Below, piece by piece: positions 3,389 through 22,523 of a stretch of DNA of 34,621 nt (position 1 is the stretch's first letter; every line of letters begins with the position of its first letter). Below the pieces are notes generated by a model. It ran no database searches. It worked only from the letters and a program-made list of their open reading frames with translations, and was not told where the DNA came from. The stretch lies in the IMG/VR virus record IMGVR_UViG_3300026184_000179, positions 1-34,621 of that record; one strand, given 5' to 3'. The translations under genes and the position numbers were made by a program. Origin of the DNA: a virus.

Positions 3389-3964
3389 ATGAATGATACT
3401 GCTAACAGCATGAATCATGCTGAGATGGTTAAAGTATTGGCCAAGCCTGGTGAGACTATACGTCAAACTTGTACTCCACACCAATGCCATATGATACATA
3501 TGGCAATCGGATTATCAGGAGAAGTAGGAGAGTTGATGGATGCTGTTATATTTGATCCATTAAACAAGGAAAATATACTTGAAGAACTTGGTGATATTGA
3601 ATTTTATTACCAAGGATTAGCACAAGAAATAACTGACTATAATGAAATATATTGTAGCTCAATCAGGCTCTATGCTCCACAAAGAATCTCAGTATCAGAA
3701 GCAATCATAAAATCAAGTATCAAAGCCAGTCAAATTCTTGATGTAATCAAAAAGTATTACATATATCAAAAGGATTATGATAAAAAATCGTTGGTTGCAT
3801 TTATGTGTAAGCTTCAATGTCTTCTTCAAGTTATAAGGGAATATAATGGATTCTCAAGAGAGGACACAAGAGTACACAACATATCAAAATTATCCATTCG
3901 ATATAAAAACTTTCAATATTCAGATGAAGCTGCACAGAATCGCGCGGATAAAGGTGAAGAATAA
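3389..3964 (+). CDS. MazG-like nucleotide pyrophosphohydrolase
   Basis: ATG 3389 follows AGGAGAG about nine bases upstream. Residues 41-75 carry the all-alpha NTP-pyrophosphatase signature: GLSGEVGEL (E45, E48) followed by EELGDIEFYY (E65, E66, D69), which coordinate magnesium in this superfamily. Such enzymes hydrolyse nucleoside triphosphates to monophosphates and pyrophosphate. Phage versions are thought to remove particular nucleotides or to modulate (p)ppGpp. The C-terminal half is helical, with no second copy of the motif. It lies between the SSB-like and nuclease genes, consistent with nucleotide-pool management during replication. The substrate cannot be read from sequence. Confidence 0.78.
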   Translation: MNDTANSMNHAEMVKVLAKPGETIRQTCTPHQCHMIHMAIGLSGEVGELMDAVIFDPLNKENILEELGDIEFYYQGLAQEITDYNEIYCSSIRLYAPQRISVSEAIIKSSIKASQILDVIKKYYIYQKDYDKKSLVAFMCKLQCLLQVIREYNGFSREDTRVHNISKLSIRYKNFQYSDEAAQNRADKGEE

Positions 3965-8732: not shown

Positions 8733-8748
8733 TGATTGCTCTTTCAAA

Positions 8749-8759
8749 ACACAGGAGAT
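8749..8759 (+). promoter_or_regulatory. ACACAGGAGAT ribosome-binding site of the 8766 gene
   Basis: ACACAGGAGAT precedes ATG 8766 with eight bases between AGGAG and the start, which decides against the upstream in-frame TTG at 8736. It is the same eleven-base word as at 2088-2098 and on the minus strand at 6977-6987. Confidence 0.65.
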
Positions 8760-8765
8760 AAAACG

Positions 8766-9575
8766 ATGATGTTCAAGATTAATGAGCAGTTCAAGGTTGT
8801 GTGCAAAGGTACTTCACTGAAGGCTGAAGAAGATGGAGATTTTCTTCTCCACGACAAGCTTCAGAAAGCAACCCTTCAGGAAGTTGCGAAAGCGAACAAT
8901 GTTGAAGTACCCAGGAAAGCCTCAGCCCCTGATCTGTTCAAGGCAATCGAAAAATCCTTCAACGAACGCGAGGACATACCAACCATGAACGATCAAACGG
9001 AAAACAAGGCTGAAGGCGCAGGTAAACCCAAGGCCAAGATCGACCAGAAGTACATCGACATCGTCAAGAAAGGCTTTGAAGCGAACAAGGATGCAGACGC
9101 TATCCAGGTTGACCTGGTTAAGGCCGGTCTGAAGTTCAAGCAGGCTGCTTCGATGTTCAAGAAAATCGCGGAGCAAGAAGGCTTCAAGATCAGCGCGAAG
9201 GAGCGCAACGAGAAAGCCAAGGAGCTGTTGGGCGATTTCGTACCCAAGAGCTGGGAAGATGTTGAAAAGTCTGTCAAGCACCTGACGGAAAACATCAAAG
9301 ATACTTCCGAACCCCAGGCGCTTGCTGTGCTTCGCAAGATTTGCAAGGATGCTGAAGTTGAGTTCCCCAAAAAGCCCAAGGGTGCCAAAGGCGGTGGCGG
9401 CCCGCGTGGCTTCAAGGCGGAAGTCTACAAGTGGATGCTGGAAAATCCGAAAGCAACCAAGAAGGAATTGGAGAAGTTCCTCACGGAAAACGGGCAGCGC
9501 CCCGTTTATATCCCGCATTACTGGGATATCATGGAGTTTGCACGGAAGTTCTCTGAAGTCTACAACAAGCAGTAA
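8766..9575 (+). CDS. Lysine-rich helical protein with SAP/HeH-like N-terminal motif
   Basis: The 269-residue product is very rich in Lys, Glu and Ala and almost entirely helical. Residues about 30-60 (KATLQEVAKANNVEVP then a second short helix) resemble a SAP or HeH helix-extension-helix, a DNA-binding or bridging motif. A basic, glycine-rich linker (about 208-222) precedes a helical C-terminal domain ending in an aromatic stretch with IPHYWDIMEF. Codon use is strikingly different from neighbours: AAG, CTG, ATC and GGC are favoured, suggesting high expression or separate origin. It has its own structured leader and a strong terminator, so it is an independent unit. A DNA-binding or host-takeover role is inference. 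Confidence 0.75.
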   Translation: MMFKINEQFKVVCKGTSLKAEEDGDFLLHDKLQKATLQEVAKANNVEVPRKASAPDLFKAIEKSFNEREDIPTMNDQTENKAEGAGKPKAKIDQKYIDIVKKGFEANKDADAIQVDLVKAGLKFKQAASMFKKIAEQEGFKISAKERNEKAKELLGDFVPKSWEDVEKSVKHLTENIKDTSEPQALAVLRKICKDAEVEFPKKPKGAKGGGGPRGFKAEVYKWMLENPKATKKELEKFLTENGQRPVYIPHYWDIMEFARKFSEVYNKQ

Positions 9576-9591
9576 GGGACCACTGCACCAG

Positions 9592-9624
9592 AAAGGGGCG
9601 CTAGAAATAGCGCCCCTTTTTTTT
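9592..9624 (+). terminator. Strong Rho-independent terminator
   Basis: AAAGGGGCGCTA (9592-9603) pairs perfectly with TAGCGCCCCTTT (9608-9619) around a GAAA tetraloop, followed by a run of eight T residues (9617-9624). This is a textbook terminator for the 8766-9575 gene. Confidence 0.93.
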
Positions 9625-9639
9625 GGGCTTATAAAAAGG

Positions 9640-9645
9640 TATAAT
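9640..9645 (+). promoter_or_regulatory. Candidate -10 box for the flavoprotein/ThyX operon
   Basis: A perfect TATAAT lies between the terminator and the first ribosome-binding site of the next operon. The -35 position falls in the T-run and does not match TTGACA, so the promoter may need an activator or a phage factor. Location is the main support. Confidence 0.5.
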
Positions 9646-9669
9646 ATAAGGTCAATAAAAGGAGATGGA

Positions 9670-9726
9670 ATGCTGGCCAACAAAATCCCTTCCCACCAAT
9701 CCCACAAAATTCTGGAGTCTCAATGA
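9670..9726 (+). CDS. Possible 18-aa leader peptide, coupled to the flavoprotein gene
   Basis: ATG 9670 follows AAAAGGAG (9657-9664) and encodes MLANKIPSHQSHKILESQ, ending at a TGA that overlaps the flavoprotein start (ATGA at 9723-9726). The good ribosome-binding site, right after a candidate -10 box, and the coupled overlap suggest translation. It may be a leader peptide that controls the operon, or a chance frame. The next gene also has its own GGAG site, so coupling is not essential. Confidence 0.4.
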   Translation: MLANKIPSHQSHKILESQ

Positions 9727-10667
9727 TAATTCTAGGCGCTGGTATGGCTGGCTGTTTAGTCGGTGCTATTAATAATGATGCTATCATATATGAGGCGCAA
9801 AATGAAATCCCTGATAATCACAATGCTGTTCTAAGGTTCAGGGAAGACAAGATAAGCAAGACCACAGGGATACCATTTAGAAAAGTAAAAGTAACAAAAA
9901 CAATATGGCATGATGGCAGAGAAGTCCAGCCATCACCAAGATTTTCAAATTGGTATTCAAAGAAGGTAACTGGTAAAATATCAGAAAGATCAATTGATAA
10001 TATTAATCCAGTTGAGCGTTTTATAGCCCCACCAGATTTCCATTTGATTCTTGCAGATATTTGCAGGAATAGAATCAAATTTGGCTACAAAGTATCAGAA
10101 ATACGCACTGATGGTATGATGTTTCATAACATAGAAGGTGCTTTTGATAGAAGTTTTACGCCAATCATTTCAACTATACCAATGCACATATTATCTGCTG
10201 TAACAAGAATACCTATAACAGCAGATTTTAATTTCAAAAATATTTTTATCACAAGATACAAAATAAAAAATTCAGACGTTTTCCAAACAATATATTACCC
10301 TGATCCACAATTCAAAATATATCGCGCCACTATAACTGGCGAAGATTTGATTGTTGAATCTATGGGCAATAATTTAGATGGGATAGAAGAAGCAATGCTG
10401 ATTGAAAGTCTTGGTTTAAAATCAAATGACTTGCAATTTGTTGCCCAAAAAGAACAGAAGTATGGTAAAATAAATCCAATAAATGATAATGTAAGAAAGA
10501 GATTCATGTTTGAAGCAACACACCAGCTAGCTATATATAGCCTTGGTCGTTTTGCTTGTTGGAGAAACATTCTGCTTGATGATGTTTATGATGACATCTT
10601 TAAAATAAAGAGAATGACTCAAAGTGATATTTACAATATAAAACTGGAGATGAGCAATGAAGGTTGA
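9723..10667 (+). CDS. FAD-dependent oxidoreductase (UGM/amine-oxidase-like fold)
   Basis: ATG 9723 follows GGAG (9714-9717). Residues 3-10 are a Rossmann FAD motif (G5, G7, G10 of GAGMAG), with an acidic residue E24 ending the second strand for ribose binding. The C-terminal region has YSLGRFACW followed by DD, the second FAD-contacting block seen in UDP-galactopyranose mutase and amine-oxidase-type flavoproteins. At 314 residues it is shorter than typical members, which suggests a reduced substrate domain. It overlaps the ThyX-like gene, which itself should use FAD, so the two probably act in one pathway. The substrate is unknown; a nucleobase or nucleotide oxidation step is inference. Confidence 0.7.
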   Translation: MIILGAGMAGCLVGAINNDAIIYEAQNEIPDNHNAVLRFREDKISKTTGIPFRKVKVTKTIWHDGREVQPSPRFSNWYSKKVTGKISERSIDNINPVERFIAPPDFHLILADICRNRIKFGYKVSEIRTDGMMFHNIEGAFDRSFTPIISTIPMHILSAVTRIPITADFNFKNIFITRYKIKNSDVFQTIYYPDPQFKIYRATITGEDLIVESMGNNLDGIEEAMLIESLGLKSNDLQFVAQKEQKYGKINPINDNVRKRFMFEATHQLAIYSLGRFACWRNILLDDVYDDIFKIKRMTQSDIYNIKLEMSNEG

Positions 10668-11436
10668 CTTAATTGATTACACAGGAGCAGGCCATAAATT
10701 CCCTGATCAATATGCAGGTAGATTGTTGGCCTATACAAAGAACACAAGATTGACTCAAGGAGCAGAGTCAAGAGATATGATTCAAGATTACTCATATGAA
10801 AAATTGATTGAGGAACTTGAATATATTGCTAACACAATCAGGAGTAGTTGGGAATTTATCAATTATACTTTTGAGATAAAAGGAGTAACAAGGGCATTCA
10901 CTCATCAGTTTGTTAGGACTAGGACAGCTAGTTTTGCTCAACAAACTATGCGTACTATTACTATTAAAGATATTCAAGTTTCAATCCCTGATTCAATAGT
11001 GCTTGGCAGTAGAGCATATGCATTATGGGATAGTGCTGTTGGTAAAATAAGGCACGTTTATGATCAACTGATACAAGAGGGAATACCACCAGAAGATGCT
11101 CGTGGTATTCTTCCAACCAATATAAAAACAAATATAATTGCTGGGATGAATTTAAGAACTCTTGCTGATCTTGTTGGTAAAAGGGATAACCCAAGAGCAC
11201 AAGGTGAGTATACTCACGTTGTAAAGCATATGTCAAACCTTGCCAGAGCAGTTCACCCATGGACTGAAAATTTCCTTTATCCAGATCGAACTAGCACACC
11301 TGAATTAAACAGGCTACTTTATTTGGTAAGAAATGAAGTTATTTCAAGAGGAATGAAAACAATTGGTGGCTATGATATCCCTGATCTTAAAACTATCTAT
11401 AAGGAATTGGATATGTTGAAAGGAGTATGGGGATGA
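10657..11436 (+). CDS. thyX: Divergent ThyX-like flavin-dependent thymidylate synthase homologue
   Basis: ATG 10657 follows GGAG and overlaps the flavoprotein gene. The 259-residue protein aligns along its length with ThyX: GVTRAFTHQFVRTR at 76-89, DARGILP at 148-153, MNLRTL at 164-169 and RAQGEY at 180-185. ThyX normally methylates dUMP using folate, FAD and NADPH. Key positions differ: the RHRX7S signature is here R87-T88-R89-X7-T97, the conserved His of the SFEH block is F67, and the Arg after AQxEI is T186. It may therefore use an altered substrate or one-carbon chemistry, or be less active. The fold assignment is firm, the reaction is not. Confidence 0.8.
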   Translation: MKVDLIDYTGAGHKFPDQYAGRLLAYTKNTRLTQGAESRDMIQDYSYEKLIEELEYIANTIRSSWEFINYTFEIKGVTRAFTHQFVRTRTASFAQQTMRTITIKDIQVSIPDSIVLGSRAYALWDSAVGKIRHVYDQLIQEGIPPEDARGILPTNIKTNIIAGMNLRTLADLVGKRDNPRAQGEYTHVVKHMSNLARAVHPWTENFLYPDRTSTPELNRLLYLVRNEVISRGMKTIGGYDIPDLKTIYKELDMLKGVWG

Positions 11437-11954
11437 CAGATGCCAAAGCTGTTATATTTGATATAGATCAAACGCTGGCAAATAATTTCCACAGGCATAA
11501 TCTTGCTGATAATAAGGATTGGAGTAAATTCCATGATGCCTGTTTGCTTGATGATCCAATAGTTCCTATGATGAAGCTATTGTGTATGTTTTATTATTCT
11601 GGTCATGAAGTTTTCTTATTAACAGCAAGGCCAGAAGCTGTAAGGATAAAAACTAACACTTGGCTAAAATCATATTCAGGGTTAGAGTTTGGCGCAAGAA
11701 ATTTATTGATGAGACGCAATGATGATGAAAGGCCAAGCTGTGAAGTAAAAGAGTCTATGTTACACAGAAAGATTTTAAAGCACTATGATATATTCTGTGC
11801 TTTTGAAGATAATGAAAATTGCATAGATATGTATACAAGGAATGGCATATTATGCATCAAGCCAATGATTAAGGGTGGTGATGTAACTCTTTGCAAAAAG
11901 TGTGGCAATTTAGTTAGAGATGAGGATGGAGATTATGTATTACAATCAAATTAA
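11433..11954 (+). CDS. HAD-family phosphatase resembling the polynucleotide kinase 3'-phosphatase domain
   Basis: ATG 11433 is preferred over ATG 11427 because the AGGAG at 11421-11425 is seven bases away; it overlaps the ThyX-like stop. Motif I is FDIDQTLA near residue 10, motif II LLTARPE near 67, and motif IV FEDNENCIDMY near 125. The layout, including the Arg-rich RRNDDERP segment and a Lys before the HxxI helix, resembles the phosphatase domain of T4 polynucleotide kinase; no kinase domain is attached. A CKKCGN pair near the C terminus may bind zinc. Likely substrates are DNA/RNA 3'-phosphates or nucleoside monophosphates. Either fits with the ligase downstream or the ThyX-like pathway upstream. 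Confidence 0.75.
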   Translation: MTDAKAVIFDIDQTLANNFHRHNLADNKDWSKFHDACLLDDPIVPMMKLLCMFYYSGHEVFLLTARPEAVRIKTNTWLKSYSGLEFGARNLLMRRNDDERPSCEVKESMLHRKILKHYDIFCAFEDNENCIDMYTRNGILCIKPMIKGGDVTLCKKCGNLVRDEDGDYVLQSN

Positions 11955-12453
11955 AACTCTTGAGGATTTCTTTTATGTTGGCCTTGATAGAGATGTTTCA
12001 AGAGTAATCCCTGATGTTAAAAAGCAACCCAGCATAATACTTAATGTTGGTGCTGGGGAAAAGGATATTGAGGGTGCTATTCCTCTTGATTACCCTGAGT
12101 ATGATTTTGACAAGGATGAAATACCTTATGTTGATAATTCTGTTGATCAGATACATGCTTATCATTTTTTGGAGCACTTACATAATCCTGTTTGGATGCT
12201 TCTTGAATTCCAAAGAGTTTTAAAGGTTGGTGGCCATGTTAATATCGTTGTGCCTTATTATAATGCACAAATAATGGCGCATGATCTTGATCACAAGCAT
12301 TCTTTTTGCGAGGATACATGGAAAATTTTATTCTCAAATCCATATTATAACAAGAATAAAGTTAGCTGGAGATTAGCAATTTATTTCAACATGATTATGG
12401 GTATAGTGGAGAGAAATTTATGCCTGTTCACTCAATTGGTAAAAAAGCTGTAG
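11935..12453 (+). CDS. Class I SAM-dependent methyltransferase-like protein
   Basis: ATG 11935 has GAGG nine bases upstream and overlaps the HAD gene by 20 bases; ATG 11926 is an alternative. Residues about 35-50 (IILNVGAGEKDI) are motif I of the Rossmann methyltransferase fold, with a DYPEYDF acidic loop, then HAYHFLEHLHNP (motif IV region) and VLKVGGHVNIVVPYY (motif V/VI). At 172 residues it is near the minimum for the fold and lacks a recognisable target-recognition domain, so it is not a typical DNA methylase. Acceptor unknown; its place between nucleotide genes suggests a nucleotide or small molecule, which is inference. Confidence 0.75.
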   Translation: MYYNQIKTLEDFFYVGLDRDVSRVIPDVKKQPSIILNVGAGEKDIEGAIPLDYPEYDFDKDEIPYVDNSVDQIHAYHFLEHLHNPVWMLLEFQRVLKVGGHVNIVVPYYNAQIMAHDLDHKHSFCEDTWKILFSNPYYNKNKVSWRLAIYFNMIMGIVERNLCLFTQLVKKL

Positions 12454-12746
12454 TACCAGAAGCACTTAGAAGTTGTGCTGAAATTTATGAAGAGCGCAAC
12501 AAGTTATATGGAGATAACTATAAACGCTTTGGTCAAGTTATGGGAATCTTATTCCCTAATGGTATTAATTTGGATAATGAAATGGAGTATAATAGATATG
12601 GAATATTTGTCCAAATGATATCAAAGATAATGCGTTACGCAGAAAACTGGGAGAAAGGCCACCCTGATTCTTTGGATGATCTTTCTGTATATTCACAAAT
12701 GCTTAATGAACTTGATGGCATTCTAAGAAAAGAAATGGAGAAATAA
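12420..12746 (+). CDS. All-alpha MazG/Nmad1 (DUF1599)-like protein
   Basis: ATG 12420 follows a GGAG site and lies inside the end of the methyltransferase gene. The 108-residue helical protein has the pattern ERNKLYGDNYKRFG, then RYGIFVQMISKIMRYAENW, then DSLDDLSVYSQML. This is typical of small all-alpha pyrophosphatase-like proteins annotated DUF1599 or Nmad1 (nucleotide modification associated domain 1). That family was named because it accompanies thymidylate synthase-like and base-modifying genes in phages, which is the arrangement here. The magnesium-binding acidic residues are only partly recognisable. Family call is from memory of the pattern. Confidence 0.65.
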   Translation: MPVHSIGKKAVVPEALRSCAEIYEERNKLYGDNYKRFGQVMGILFPNGINLDNEMEYNRYGIFVQMISKIMRYAENWEKGHPDSLDDLSVYSQMLNELDGILRKEMEK

Positions 12747-13312
12747 TGATTGTTTTTGACAATGAGACCACTGGCCTTTTAAAGCCTAGCCTAACAGATA
12801 TTTCTGAACAGCCTTATATAACTGAAATATGCTGTGTTAAAATCAACTTTGATCAAAACTCTGGAGAGTATGACTTTGTTGATGAAATGGAAACTCTTGT
12901 TAAGCCAGGCATGCCAATCCCTGAAGATTTAGAAGAAAAGATTGGCATAACAAATGAGATGGTTGAAGGTGCTCCGCCTTTCATAGAAATTTATGATCAT
13001 CTCTGTGATTTCTTTTTGGGCGAGCAAACTTTTGTTGCCCATAACCTTTCATTCGATGCCGGTTGTGTTAAATATGAATTGATGCGTCATGGTCTTGAAT
13101 TTAAATTCCCATGGCCAAAGAATTGGTTGTGTACTGTAGAGGCAACAAGGCATCTTGAAAATAAAAGACTGAGACTTGGTTACCTTCATGAATTGGCTAC
13201 AGGCAAACAACTTGAAGGTTGGCACAGAGCAAAGAATGATGTCTACGGACTCATCAGAATTTTAAATTGGATGGTTGATCAAAAAATCATTAATCCAGAG
13301 GCATATCCATGA
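12746..13312 (+). CDS. DEDDh 3'-5' exonuclease (DnaQ/epsilon-like)
   Basis: The start overlaps the previous stop as TAATG. Exo I is FDNETTG with D5 and E7, Exo II is HNLSFDAG with D104, and Exo III is HRAKNDV with H160 and D165, giving a complete DEDDh active site. The 188-residue length equals the catalytic core of the Pol III epsilon subunit. Three genes downstream lies a DnaE-type polymerase, so this is very likely its separately encoded proofreading exonuclease. There is no visible clamp-binding motif. Confidence 0.88.
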   Translation: MIVFDNETTGLLKPSLTDISEQPYITEICCVKINFDQNSGEYDFVDEMETLVKPGMPIPEDLEEKIGITNEMVEGAPPFIEIYDHLCDFFLGEQTFVAHNLSFDAGCVKYELMRHGLEFKFPWPKNWLCTVEATRHLENKRLRLGYLHELATGKQLEGWHRAKNDVYGLIRILNWMVDQKIINPEAYP

Positions 13313-13548: not shown

Positions 13549-13730
13549 GAGTTAAAATTGGCGATAAATGGCACAATTCAGATGATGAACCAATATGTAT
13601 TCAAATATCTGAATTAGAACAAAAACAAATTGGCAATATAGATCGTTCAGTTGCAACACAAGGAAAGTATGCAATATTCCCTGATGATTGGAGTCCAGAG
13701 CACTGTTTTTCTTGGATGAATGATTTATGA
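13545..13730 (+). CDS. Hypothetical protein, 61 aa
   Basis: ATGA overlaps join it to both the preceding gene and the polymerase gene, so its translation is probably coupled to the polymerase. The product is beta-rich with charged loops: MRVKIGDKWHNSDDEPICIQ at the start and a Trp-rich, acidic end (FPDDWSPEHCFSWMNDL). A small beta-sheet domain is likely. Family not recognised. Confidence 0.62.
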   Translation: MRVKIGDKWHNSDDEPICIQISELEQKQIGNIDRSVATQGKYAIFPDDWSPEHCFSWMNDL

Positions 13731-16543
13731 TTAACCTTGCATTACGCACTGAATATAGCTTCCAAAAAACTTTTGGACATCTAAATGATGTTGTTAAAGG
13801 TGATGAAAGTGCAGTTGGTATAGCTGATATTGGCAATACATTTGGTCACATAAGATTCCAAAAAATATGTGATGATAAGAAAGTCAAGCCAATTTTCGGA
13901 GTAAGGCTAGCAGTTGTTGAATCTGTATCTGAAAGAGTAAGAACAGAAGGCAGGCAGTATATTTTTCTAGCAAAAAATAACGATGGCTTATCTGAAATAT
14001 ATAGGCTAATAAAAACTGCTTATGAAAATTTCTATTATATACCAAGAGTTGGCCTGCTTGATGTTTGGAATTTAAGTGAAAATATATTTGTTCTTTCTGA
14101 TAACTTTGAGATACCAGAGAGAATAGATTATATTGCTTTATCACCAGGCATGAACCCAAAATGCTTAGAGTTTGATTTGCCTCGTGTTGCTATCAATAAT
14201 AATTACTATACAACGCCTCAAGATTATAAATATTATGAGGCATTGGCTAATGATAGGAATAGAGAAATACAAACATACTCTCAACACATATTATCAGAAG
14301 CTGAATTTTATTGGCTTTTCAAGGATAAATCTGCTATAGAAAATACATACAAGATAGCAGATGAATGTAATGCTAGAGTAAAAAAGGCTGAGATGGTAAA
14401 ATATAAAGGAGATTGGAATTTAAGGGATTTATGTTATCAAGGTGCTATTGAAAGAGGCGTTGATTTAAATGAGCCTATTTATTATGAAAGGCTTGAGAAA
14501 GAACTTGGGCTAATTGAAGATAAGAATTTTGGTGATTATTTTTTGATTACTTCAGAGATGATCAGGAAGGCAAAAAAGAAAATGCTTGTTGGCCCTAGTC
14601 GTGGTTCATCAGCTGGCTCTCTTGTTTGCTACTTAACTTATATAACAGAGATTGATCCAATCAAGTTTGGTTTAATCTTTGAACGTTTCGTTGATGTTAA
14701 TCGTTCTGATTTGCCTGATATTGATATTGACTTCCCTGATAAAAAGCGTGGCAAGGTCATCAAGGATTTGGAAAATACTTATGGCAAAGAGAATGTAACC
14801 CATATTGCAAATATCAATAGGTTGAAGGCCAAGTCTGCTATAGGTAGATTTGCACAAGCCATTAACATACCAGCATATGAAACAGAAGAAGTAAAAGATG
14901 CAATTATTGAACGTTCTGGCGGTGATGCTAGAGCAGCAATGTGCATTAAAGATACGCTAGAAACTACTGAAGTTGGGAAAGCTTTGATTGAAAAGTATCC
15001 TAATATGAAGTATGTTGAAATGTTTGAGGATCATGCTAGCCATGCTGGTATGCACGCTGCTGGTATTATTGTTTGTAACGAACCATTACATCATTATGGC
15101 GGAATCAATGTAAAAGATGATGTCATAATGATGGATAAGAAAGATGCTGAAGCTGTTAATCTTTTGAAAATTGATTGCCTTGGTCTTAGGACTTTATCAA
15201 TTTTAGAAGATTGTGCTAAACATGCTGGCTTTGATTTCCATGATTTCTATGAATTGCCTCTTGATGATAAAAAGGTTTTTGATGTTTTCAACCAAAGTCG
15301 TTTCCATGGCATATTTCAATTTGAAGGATATTCTCTTCAAGCAATTACAAAGGGCATGGGCGTTCATAGGTTTGAAGATATTGTTGCTATTACTTCTTTG
15401 TCCCGGCCTGGTGCTCTTCACTCTGGTGGCGCTAATCGCTATGTCAAACTTAGCAATCAGGAAAATGAGCCGACTTATTATGGCGATATACACAAAAGTA
15501 TCGTTGGTGAAAGTTTTGGCATCGTTATTTACCAAGAGCAAATGATGAATATTGCTAGGCTTATCGGCAATCTCAGTTGGGGTGATGTTGATAAGCTTAG
15601 GAGAGCAGCAAGTAAGAGTCTTGGTGATGAATTCTTTAGTCAATATAAAGATAAATTCATGACTGGTGCAGTTGATGAAAATAATGTTTCTGTTGAAAAT
15701 GCAGAAGCTTTATGGAATGATATTTGCCATTGTGGCTCTTGGATATTCAATAAGTCTCATGCTGTTTCTTATAGTCTTATATCATATTGGACTGCTTGGT
15801 GTAAAGCTTATCACCCATTAGCTTTTACAGCAGCAAATCTTAATAACGCAAGGGATGAAGAAACATCAATCAAGATATTAAGGGATGCTGTAAAATATGA
15901 TGGCATTGAATATACCGCCATTGATCCTGATGAATCTGATGTTGATTGGACCATAAAGGATGGCAAGCTTCTTGGTGGTCTCACAACTATAAAAGGAATA
16001 GGGGTTAGCAAGGCAAAGGAAATAGTGAGGCGTAGAAATAAAGGAGTTGAGCAAACTCCAAGCATTTATAAAAAGCTCATGAATCCTGAAACTAAGTTTA
16101 ACATTCTATTCCCTTGTGAATATCATTGGGGTGATATATACAGAAATTATAGAATGTATGGCCTTGATTTGCCACCAGTCCCAATTGAGATGATACAAGG
16201 TGCTGGGAATTATATTTTTATTGGATTACTTTCTGATAAAAACTTACGTGATTTAAATGAATATCAAAGCGTTGTTAAAAGAGGTGGCAAGATAATTGAA
16301 AATGATACCTTGTTTTTAAACTTGGTTTTTGAAGATGATACTGATAGTATTATGACTACAATAAACCGGTGGAATTTTGAAAGAATTGGTAGAGAAATAA
16401 CTGAAAAAGGTGTTGTTGGCAAACATTGGTATTTAATAAAAGGTACAATCAAAAACCCAGAATGGCGTCGCGTTGATATATCAGAGATAATAAACTTAAA
16501 CGAATACATCGGTTTAAAAGAGGTTGACAATGCTGTTAATTGA
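13727..16543 (+). CDS. dnaE: DnaE-type DNA polymerase III alpha subunit, inactive PHP domain
   Basis: The 938-residue C-family polymerase starts in an ATGA overlap. Residues 1 to about 200 form a PHP domain whose metal histidines are gone: the HSxYS site reads TEYSF, and the DHG site reads DIG. The palm has VGPSRGSSAGS near 287 and the catalytic aspartates D333 and D335 (PDIDIDFPD) and D483 (KIDCLGLRT). A helix-hairpin-helix (TIKGIGVSKAKEI) lies near 755 and an OB-like domain follows. Compared with E. coli DnaE (1160 residues), the C-terminal tau-binding region is missing. With the adjacent exonuclease it should replicate phage DNA; clamp and loader genes were not seen here. Confidence 0.92.
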   Translation: MINLALRTEYSFQKTFGHLNDVVKGDESAVGIADIGNTFGHIRFQKICDDKKVKPIFGVRLAVVESVSERVRTEGRQYIFLAKNNDGLSEIYRLIKTAYENFYYIPRVGLLDVWNLSENIFVLSDNFEIPERIDYIALSPGMNPKCLEFDLPRVAINNNYYTTPQDYKYYEALANDRNREIQTYSQHILSEAEFYWLFKDKSAIENTYKIADECNARVKKAEMVKYKGDWNLRDLCYQGAIERGVDLNEPIYYERLEKELGLIEDKNFGDYFLITSEMIRKAKKKMLVGPSRGSSAGSLVCYLTYITEIDPIKFGLIFERFVDVNRSDLPDIDIDFPDKKRGKVIKDLENTYGKENVTHIANINRLKAKSAIGRFAQAINIPAYETEEVKDAIIERSGGDARAAMCIKDTLETTEVGKALIEKYPNMKYVEMFEDHASHAGMHAAGIIVCNEPLHHYGGINVKDDVIMMDKKDAEAVNLLKIDCLGLRTLSILEDCAKHAGFDFHDFYELPLDDKKVFDVFNQSRFHGIFQFEGYSLQAITKGMGVHRFEDIVAITSLSRPGALHSGGANRYVKLSNQENEPTYYGDIHKSIVGESFGIVIYQEQMMNIARLIGNLSWGDVDKLRRAASKSLGDEFFSQYKDKFMTGAVDENNVSVENAEALWNDICHCGSWIFNKSHAVSYSLISYWTAWCKAYHPLAFTAANLNNARDEETSIKILRDAVKYDGIEYTAIDPDESDVDWTIKDGKLLGGLTTIKGIGVSKAKEIVRRRNKGVEQTPSIYKKLMNPETKFNILFPCEYHWGDIYRNYRMYGLDLPPVPIEMIQGAGNYIFIGLLSDKNLRDLNEYQSVVKRGGKIIENDTLFLNLVFEDDTDSIMTTINRWNFERIGREITEKGVVGKHWYLIKGTIKNPEWRRVDISEIINLNEYIGLKEVDNAVN

Positions 16544-20559: not shown

Positions 20560-21240
20560 TTATCTCCAATTTTCCCTTACCCATTCAAAATGAGTAAATT
20601 TTGCAGGATCAAAACGACGACCATAAAGGCCAGCTATTTTTATATCACTTGATATTTCATTAGCATGCATCTCCTTGTGTTCTTTCATGCTATATATTCC
20701 ATCTGATTCATCCCAATATTTGCATGGATGAACATATTTGGATATTATTGCCTGATCCGTGCCCAGCCAGCCTTGGCTTCTTTTTTGTTGTATCTCTCTT
20801 TCTGGACACTCTTTAAACTTCTCATAAACTTCATTTAACACTCCATTTTTAAAAAGCATGAATGAAGTATTATACATAAAGCCTCTGGAACACTTGCTAG
20901 GACACTTCCATATTTTAAAATCATCATCAGTTATCATATTTGTTATATTTTTGATGATGATTATATCAATATCAATTTGTAATATTTTATCACCAAATAT
21001 ACTGCTGTTGGCAGATGATAGAATGTTAAGCCTTCTATAATTGAATTTTGTTTGGCCAAATTCTTCCCATATTGGCATTGTATTTATCTTTGATATAAAG
21101 TCTTCAGATTCAGGCTTATCAGTTATACAGAAGAAATCAAAATCAATATCAAGATTTCTTTTGACCATGTTATAACTTTTATTGACATGGTCAATAGAAT
21201 AAAGATCACCCCAAAGCCAAGTGACTACTGAAAGAGTCAT
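20560..21240 (-). CDS. GT-A-type glycosyltransferase
   Basis: The 226-residue protein begins LSVVTWLWGDLY, a typical nucleotide-sugar-binding start of GT8-like enzymes, and carries a DxD motif in LQIDIDIIIIKNI near residue 95, followed by NTSFMLFKNG and a GTDQAII block near 180 (the GxDQ of GT8-like proteins). The fold and metal motif support a retaining GT-A transferase. Sugar donor and acceptor are unknown. It overlaps the GT2-methyltransferase gene (ATGA), so the glycosyltransferases are one co-translated set. Confidence 0.78.
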   Translation of the reverse strand: MTLSVVTWLWGDLYSIDHVNKSYNMVKRNLDIDFDFFCITDKPESEDFISKINTMPIWEEFGQTKFNYRRLNILSSANSSIFGDKILQIDIDIIIIKNITNMITDDDFKIWKCPSKCSRGFMYNTSFMLFKNGVLNEVYEKFKECPEREIQQKRSQGWLGTDQAIISKYVHPCKYWDESDGIYSMKEHKEMHANEISSDIKIAGLYGRRFDPAKFTHFEWVRENWR

Positions 21241-22523
21241 ACATCTACCTTTATAATTGAATGCTTTTCTCTATGCACTAAATGATTATGTATTGAATAT
21301 TTCCTTATATAAAAATGCTCTGATATGAAAGACAAATAATCACTGGCGCTTCTAAAACACATATGGTGAGTGTTATTAAAGCTATCATGAGTATTTTCAT
21401 ATAAGAATATTTGGAAATCTTGTTCTTTTATTTTACTTAATTTTCTGAAAATCTCGCCAACTATATAATCACAATTGTGCTGCAAAACATTTGATGTAAA
21501 GAAAAGATCAAAATCAAAACCTAAATCATACACAAATGGATCAGACAATAATTTATACCAATAACCAGGATTATTTTCTGCTGCCATAAGTATAAATTTT
21601 TCAGTTATATCAACACCAAGATATTTTGACTTATCAAATAGCCTACTAAATTTACCTACACCACATCCATAATCTAAAGTACAAAGACCAACATCTAAAA
21701 ATTGCTTAATAAAATCTGTTTTAGATTTCATTATTGAATCCTGTATACCCCTATTTTTACCAGCATACCCAACTGCTAAATCATTTTGCTGAGAGGCTCT
21801 GTTTGACCAATAATCTTTAACCTTATCAACATTTAATCCGCCTTGATATTTGTTTCTTGGGTCTTGGTTGTATGATATATTATTTCTCCATGTAGAATTA
21901 TACCTTTCAGCATTATGTCTTACTAAATTTGGAACAACAAGATATTTTACTTTGCCATTTTGCCTATTCTTTCTATGGTATATATTTACATCAATTTTAC
22001 TACCAATGCAATTATTACCAATCATTGTTGGTGTAGGGAAATTATGTTGGCTTTCCATAGGGAACCATTTTTGCCAGGTAGATTTTTTGGCCAACAATTG
22101 TGTGAATCTTGATGAGTGTTTTATTTTATATCCACTGCCTGATCTAAATGATTTATGGTCCGGCGCATCATATCCTGTTATAAAATCAATGTCATAATTT
22201 GAATATTCCATAAGCTTTTCAAGCCAACCATATTCAAATTCAACATCATCTTGAAATTCACAAACCCATAAACTATTGCACAAAGATATTGCTTGATTAA
22301 ACCTTGGTATTATTCCTATCCTTTCATTTTGATTTGGCAATAATTTTATTTTTGGGAATTGTGTAATTATTGATTCTATATATTCTTTTGTTCCATCTGT
22401 TGATCCATCATTTGATATAATTATTTGATTGATTTTATCAAGATCAGTATTTGCAAAAAAACTATGCATAGTTCTTTTGAAAAGACTTTCTCTATTATAT
22501 GTTGTTATAATTACATCAAACAT
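21237..22523 (-). CDS. Fusion of GT2-family glycosyltransferase and SAM methyltransferase
   Basis: Residues 1 to about 220 are a GT2 domain: FDVIITTYNRESLF, ISNDGSTDGT near 40, and EFQDDVEF (DxD) near 93. Residues about 275-428 are a class I methyltransferase: LDYGCGVGKFSRLF (motif I), GVDIT acidic loop, then FFTSNVLQH. The single 428-residue chain would transfer a sugar and methylate it or its carrier, a combination found in surface-polysaccharide synthesis. In a phage it may modify tail fibres, DNA or host surface glycans. It overlaps both neighbours. Confidence 0.82.
   Translation of the reverse strand: MFDVIITTYNRESLFKRTMHSFFANTDLDKINQIIISNDGSTDGTKEYIESIITQFPKIKLLPNQNERIGIIPRFNQAISLCNSLWVCEFQDDVEFEYGWLEKLMEYSNYDIDFITGYDAPDHKSFRSGSGYKIKHSSRFTQLLAKKSTWQKWFPMESQHNFPTPTMIGNNCIGSKIDVNIYHRKNRQNGKVKYLVVPNLVRHNAERYNSTWRNNISYNQDPRNKYQGGLNVDKVKDYWSNRASQQNDLAVGYAGKNRGIQDSIMKSKTDFIKQFLDVGLCTLDYGCGVGKFSRLFDKSKYLGVDITEKFILMAAENNPGYWYKLLSDPFVYDLGFDFDLFFTSNVLQHNCDYIVGEIFRKLSKIKEQDFQIFLYENTHDSFNNTHHMCFRSASDYLSFISEHFYIRKYSIHNHLVHREKHSIIKVDV

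Follow-up and report, generated by a model that had tools for sequence, protein, structure and literature searches.

What does a virus make with a run of overlapping genes built around a ThyX relative whose canonical active-site histidines have been replaced? The question is raised by IMG/VR virus record IMGVR_UViG_3300026184_000179, the whole of which (34,621 bases, here called the window) was analysed, and in which five plus-strand open reading frames (ORFs) fill positions 9723-12746. Four of them, encoding a flavoprotein, the ThyX relative, a HAD phosphatase and a DUF6378-like protein, are the core of a cassette common to many unrelated phages, therapy phages included; the fifth, a methyltransferase, is optional. 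We read the cassette, with a probability of roughly one half, as one that modifies pyrimidines at the nucleotide level, and it may shield the phage genome from bacterial defences through a modified base. A literature search, which left most subscription papers outside its scope, found no paper describing the cassette. That ThyX and its partner represent a new branch of ThyX chemistry is possible, though less likely than a variation on a known kind of system.

Results

A conserved core of four genes

IMG/VR was scanned with the flavoprotein alone, which gave 196 relatives and 80 loci kept, and with patterns for ThyX, one such scan keeping 80 of 586. Counts refer to loci rather than to independent lineages, because a few contigs occur twice, as identical or almost identical copies (L038/L039, L050/L057, L027/L108 and L081/L174). 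ThyX was present in 77 of the 80 flavoprotein-selected loci, and the other three stop less than 1 kb from the flavoprotein. Forty-seven of these loci extend at least 5 kb downstream; in this long set we found ThyX in 47/47, all four core genes in 45/47, an exonuclease in 44/47 and DnaE in 43/47. The order flavoprotein-ThyX-DUF6378-exonuclease was kept in 59 of the 60 loci where it was readable, and this recurrence argues that the gene run is not due to chance. HAD phosphatase and DUF6378-like protein are fused in 13 of the 80 loci.

The first-pass annotation had proposed an operon of five genes with overlapping starts and stops. All five ORFs were confirmed, every junction overlaps, and the start given there (9670) lies 53 bases ahead of the flavoprotein ATG. 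As a conserved order, the proposal holds for the four-gene core across phage genomes and fails for the methyltransferase. The latter (11920..12453, + strand; Methyltransf_11, 9.1e-7; phrog_6636, 1e-47), a small S-adenosylmethionine (SAM)-dependent enzyme, was seen at only 6 of 80 loci besides the window, and we dropped it from the core. Genome-wide, phrog_6636 occurs in 6 of 40 records, one of these matches being weak. JG024, a Pbunavirus, holds a close relative of the window methyltransferase far from its cassette (L088, 6792-7394).

The flavoprotein is encoded by 359 of 50,697 phage records, in 357 of them over most of its length. Among the records examined, carriers were found in Pbunavirus, Wifcevirus, Carpasinavirus and Cuauhnahuacvirus as well as among Vibrio, Cronobacter, Luteibacter and Salmonella phages. 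A pattern-based scan of 84,980 genomes representing species of bacteria and archaea returned the flavoprotein twice, both times on contigs of metagenome-assembled genomes with ThyX nearby. The family is essentially viral. In phage RHph_TM39, the flavoprotein and adjoining genes that close relatives have at this site are missing (L269, 7731-7956), through a deletion or an incomplete record.

A ThyX without its histidines, paired with a flavoprotein

The ThyX relative of the window (10657..11436, + strand) matches Thy1 (PF02511; 6.4e-33) with 114.6 bits against a curated cut-off of 24.8. Residues were mapped by profile alignment to T. maritima ThyX; for the numbering, the PDB chain was taken to carry a tag of 12 residues. 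Positions H53, H59 and H79, which in ordinary ThyX presumably help handle folate and flavin, are I61, F67 and T88 in the window protein. This ThyX, called divergent at first sight, has thus truly diverged in its active site. Among ThyX proteins partnered with the flavoprotein, H53 and H59 were missing in 86/86 and H79 in 85/86; from loci without the flavoprotein, H79 was kept in 92/92, H53 in 91/92 and H59 in 88/92. R78, R80, R90, R147 and R174 are what we take to be the nucleotide (dUMP)-binding arginines of ThyX. The first three, together with Q75, were kept in all 178 ThyX rows of both groups, and R147, R174, Q180 and E182 wherever they were aligned.

The pairing was also seen from the side of ThyX: the reverse scan placed the flavoprotein at 73 of 76 altered-ThyX loci, and of the three loci lacking it two have upstream stretches shorter than 1 kb, while that of the remaining one measures 4.1 kb. 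No canonical ThyX locus held the flavoprotein (0/89). The patterns of both ThyX scans cover some of the residues counted above (H53, H59, H79), those of the canonical scan leaving H79 untouched; only the flavoprotein-selected set is therefore unbiased for ThyX residues. In the tree, all altered ThyX, actinophages included, form one clade with a support of 99/96. The histidines were thus probably lost once, and the pair probably stayed together afterwards over very deep divergence. In 40 records, which may be fragments, no ThyA (PF00303) was found, and in 39 of them ThyX is the sole thymidylate synthase. One virus (L085) carries two ThyX genes (9292-9900 and 14792-15568). One is of the altered cassette type; the other is very divergent, with a long branch apart from the clade and a broken RHR motif.

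The flavoprotein has the predicted fold of UDP-galactopyranose mutase

The flavoprotein (9723..10667, + strand) belongs to phrog_4828 (7.5e-78), a family without known function, and the window protein matched no Pfam family. An AlphaFold2 model built from 40 sequences reached a mean pLDDT of 89.9. Its top match in VIA-align was UDP-galactopyranose mutase (UGM; 4dsh), with Z 21.9 over 298 of 314 residues at 3.2 Å and 16% identity; protoporphyrinogen oxidase was the next family (Z 19.3), and Foldseek returned UGM mixed with amine-oxidase-type enzymes. Sequence comparison gave a different picture. GLF was absent from the four Pfam families seen among 40 family members, hhalign against E. coli K-12 Glf gave 8.8%, which is no sequence link, and a PDB sequence search produced noise-level matches only, that to UGM being confined to one short stretch (E 0.67). 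As the predicted fold matches UGM and the sequence does not, we describe the protein as a UGM-fold enzyme; the earlier label UGM-like is sustained by the predicted fold and not by the sequence. A search for an M6 relative gave no flavoprotein match among the ORFs of the stretch examined.

The HAD phosphatase and the DUF6378-like protein

The third core gene (11427..11954, + strand) encodes a HAD phosphatase resembling the phosphatase of PNKP, in agreement with its first label. It matches PF25109 (HAD_PNKP; 6.9e-19) with 68.8 bits against a cut-off of 27.6 as well as phrog_415 (5.8e-35), and the catalytic DIDQT motif is present in its sequence. The last core gene (12420..12746, + strand), initially labelled Nmad1/MazG-like, encodes a helical protein of 108 residues. 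The window protein has no Pfam match and hence none to Nmad1; among 29 homologues, 23 hit DUF6378 (PF19905, best 3e-5), so the Nmad1 label was abandoned. Its model (pLDDT 91.6) consists of four helices. When a MazG fold was sought, the best PDB match had a Z of 7.8 and Foldseek gave none at E ≤ 0.001, so that no confident match emerged. The protein is possibly a nucleotide pyrophosphohydrolase. A separate MazG-like pyrophosphatase gene (phrog_229) lies upstream on the same strand of the window (3389-3964).

Variable tailoring genes around the core

Variable genes sit between ThyX and the exonuclease, and at times between the flavoprotein and ThyX. Across 83 loci, SDR was found in 24, a VOC-like protein, so named from weak Pfam hits, in 18 (in 17 alongside SDR), radical SAM in 4 and carbamoyltransferase in 3; one Vibrio phage locus has a sulfotransferase. 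Swappable decorators around a constant core are what one would expect if this were a hypermodification cluster, and the variable enzymes agree with the interpretation made at first pass. The carbamoyltransferase is a full NodU/TobZ-type protein located between the flavoprotein and ThyX in L044, L050 and L057 (8900-10612 in L057). In two clusters, a pyrimidine-dimer glycosylase (Pyr_excise, DenV-like) follows ThyX in 14 and 11 loci, for example at 9837-10361 in L063 and 10758-11120 in L019.

The same parts in actinophages

Two actinophages, Thoth of Mycobacterium and Xenia2 of Gordonia, encode a phrog_8720 'oxidoreductase', a HAD phosphatase, a phrog_6636-type methyltransferase, SDR and DnaE, and their ThyX, located downstream of DnaE, also lacks the three histidines. 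In Microbacterium phage Hiddenleaf, the oxidoreductase adjoins a ThyX without the three histidines; Microbacterium phage Sparcetus has a set of oxidoreductase, HAD, SDR, VOC-like and DUF6378-like proteins, with ThyX a few kilobases off. At profile level the actinophage oxidoreductases are related to the flavoprotein (hhalign 92.8%, 230 columns), and the Thoth HAD matches the pyrimidine 5'-deoxynucleotidase NT5C (1.5e-7). That phages of a different host phylum hold these parts in a rearranged order argues for a joint function. The available part of a genome announcement (PMC11385102) lists the actinophage genes singly and describes no system. In Sparcetus, DnaE consists of two ORFs with a small gene between them (L094, 6619-7653 and 7861-10116).

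Restriction phenotypes of carriers

DNA of Pbunavirus JG024 was left uncut by ScaI, NdeI and BsaI in digests described in PMC10913387, in which the authors propose methylation. Its genome contains 2 ScaI, 10 NdeI and 5 BsaI sites, together with 6 XbaI and 3 SacII sites. Of 16 enzymes tried on Pbunavirus isolates in PMC11945000, 10 failed to cut the DNA of AA20 and 7 that of AC20. SmaI and XhoI have no site in the JG024 genome, where the sites were counted in place of those of AA20 and AC20, and part of the resistance of these two phages may therefore be trivial. Wifcevirus phages are resistant to restriction-modification (RM) in print and, as with Pbunavirus, the authors were unable to account for the resistance.

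We searched seven carrier genomes for N4/N6, C5, D12 and Dam-type methylases (four Pfam families) and for the deazaguanine gene TGT and found none in any of the seven. phrog_6636 was not found in WFH, Carpasina or E79, and its absence from WFH, the one Wifcevirus genome searched, makes it an unlikely cause of the Wifcevirus resistance.

Genomic surroundings in the window

Base 12746 is both the last of the DUF6378-like gene and the first of the gene for a DNA polymerase III epsilon-like exonuclease (12746..13312, + strand; RNase_T, 9e-20), which is followed by a DnaE-like DNA polymerase III alpha (13727..16543, + strand; phrog_405, 1e-220). Both are conserved downstream neighbours of the core. 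Upstream of the flavoprotein, a 279-residue protein (8736-9575) has matches in six loci, the window counted, including those of Vibrio and Cronobacter phages. The minus strand carries a GtrB-like glycosyltransferase (21237-22523; phrog_841, 2.5e-6) and tail genes. A search with known defence models gave no match.

Discussion

From this set of genes we infer a substrate, a product, a clearing of the nucleotide pool and a protective role. The ThyX relative would still bind dUMP or a close pyrimidine nucleotide despite its lost histidines, and with its dedicated UGM-fold flavoprotein it would place a group other than plain methyl, such as a hydroxymethyl-type handle, onto C5. The HAD phosphatase and the DUF6378-like protein, often fused, might clear unmodified dTMP and dTTP from the pool; the new nucleotide would then be incorporated by the adjacent exonuclease and DnaE. 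The optional tailoring enzymes may finish the base differently in each phage, giving protection from restriction. Going further, we tentatively propose that a histidine-less ThyX and a UGM-fold partner constitute an undescribed two-flavoenzyme route to a new C5-substituted deoxyuridine, which would bear lineage-specific decorations (methyl, carbamoyl, sulfo or reduced) and would have gone unnoticed in virion DNA across hundreds of phage isolates, therapeutic Pbunaviruses among them.

Several observations weigh against this reading, and some of them would suit the main alternative, a plain supply of thymidylate. The window ThyX clears the NCBI thyX equivalog TIGR02170 by 2.4 bits (90.3 vs 87.9), so that ordinary thymidylate synthesis is possible. 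ThyX would then make dTMP, the flavoprotein would be a redox or assembly partner compensating for the lost histidines, and HAD and DUF6378-like proteins would serve pool housekeeping. The kept dUMP-binding residues, the lack of any other thymidylate synthase in nearly all records and the position of the cassette in the replication module fit such a role, as does the cutting of carrier DNA by enzymes with T in their sites, XbaI and HindIII among them. In the reported digests, XbaI (PMC10913387) and SacII (PMC3008698) cut JG024 DNA, and HindIII and MspI cut the DNA of all four phages of a further study, two of them Pbunavirus (PMC11945000). From the latter source, the two Pbunavirus isolates are 95.6% identical and yet differ in their resistance, and in the published account Wifcevirus is sensitive to EcoP1_I. 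Any modification must hence be partial, tolerated or small, as XbaI, SacII, HindIII and MspI cut. In addition, since the altered ThyX form one clade, the histidine losses amount to a single event, and RHph_TM39, in a record titled partial genome, has ThyX and HAD-DUF6378 with no annotated flavoprotein at the site. Plain supply nevertheless sits poorly with the partner-free state of ordinary phage ThyX (89/89 canonical loci), and it leaves unexplained both the restriction resistance of carriers and the genes exchanged at the site, which encode methyl-, carbamoyl- and sulfotransferases, SDR and radical SAM. We consider it possible and doubt it.

The resistance could also come from an unrelated source, for instance from a methyltransferase that escapes recognition (phrog_6636, say, if it targets DNA) or from an inhibitory protein, with the cassette acting on free nucleotides only. 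The phrog_6636 relative of JG024 outside its cassette and the methylation suggested by the JG024 authors speak for such a source; this is nonetheless improbable given the missing phrog_6636 of E79, WFH and Carpasina, the resistance of Wifcevirus and the seven carrier genomes in which none of the four methylase families was found. It is more improbable still, to the point of being hardly credible, that the cassette modifies a target other than DNA, such as a signal nucleotide or a sugar nucleotide, in which case an NDP-linked compound would be the substrate of the UGM-fold enzyme. UGM being the closest fold, with its faint match in sequence, would agree with this, but the linkage to ThyX and the replicative polymerase is constant, and the core has no glycosyltransferase.

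If pyrimidines are indeed modified by the cassette, the DNA of widely used therapeutic phages would contain a non-canonical base, with consequences for their host range, their sensitivity to CRISPR and their engineering. It would also mean that ThyX chemistry has a second branch, one that depends on a partner.

Comparison with known systems

With canonical ThyX (PF02511), the cassette enzyme shares the Thy1 domain, the dUMP-binding arginines and Q180/E182; it differs in the replacement of H53, H59, H79 and Y91, in a relaxed S88 and in its constant flavoprotein neighbour. The flavoprotein shares with UGM a predicted fold over nearly the whole protein, whereas it has no GLF match or sequence link to E. 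coli Glf and falls short of the length of its best eukaryotic matches by 150 to 200 residues. The phrog_8720 sets of actinophage clusters D, DV and EF resemble the cassette in flavoprotein, HAD, SDR, DnaE and histidine-less ThyX, with a methyltransferase in clusters D and DV; their flavoprotein has diverged to profile-level similarity, and in D and DV ThyX lies downstream of DnaE.

SPO1/SP8-type phages switch the pool to 5-hydroxymethyl-dU and remove dTMP and dTTP by other enzymes. The cassette would resemble them in the proposed removal of dTMP/dTTP beside a dUMP-modifying enzyme, and uses different enzyme families. Thymidine hypermodification in ViI, M6 and phiW-14 starts from a ThyA-type hydroxymethylase. 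These phages and the carriers of the cassette have in common a thymidylate-synthase-superfamily logic, variable tailoring enzymes including radical SAM, and partial restriction resistance; in place of a ThyA-type enzyme, the cassette has ThyX and a UGM-fold flavoprotein.

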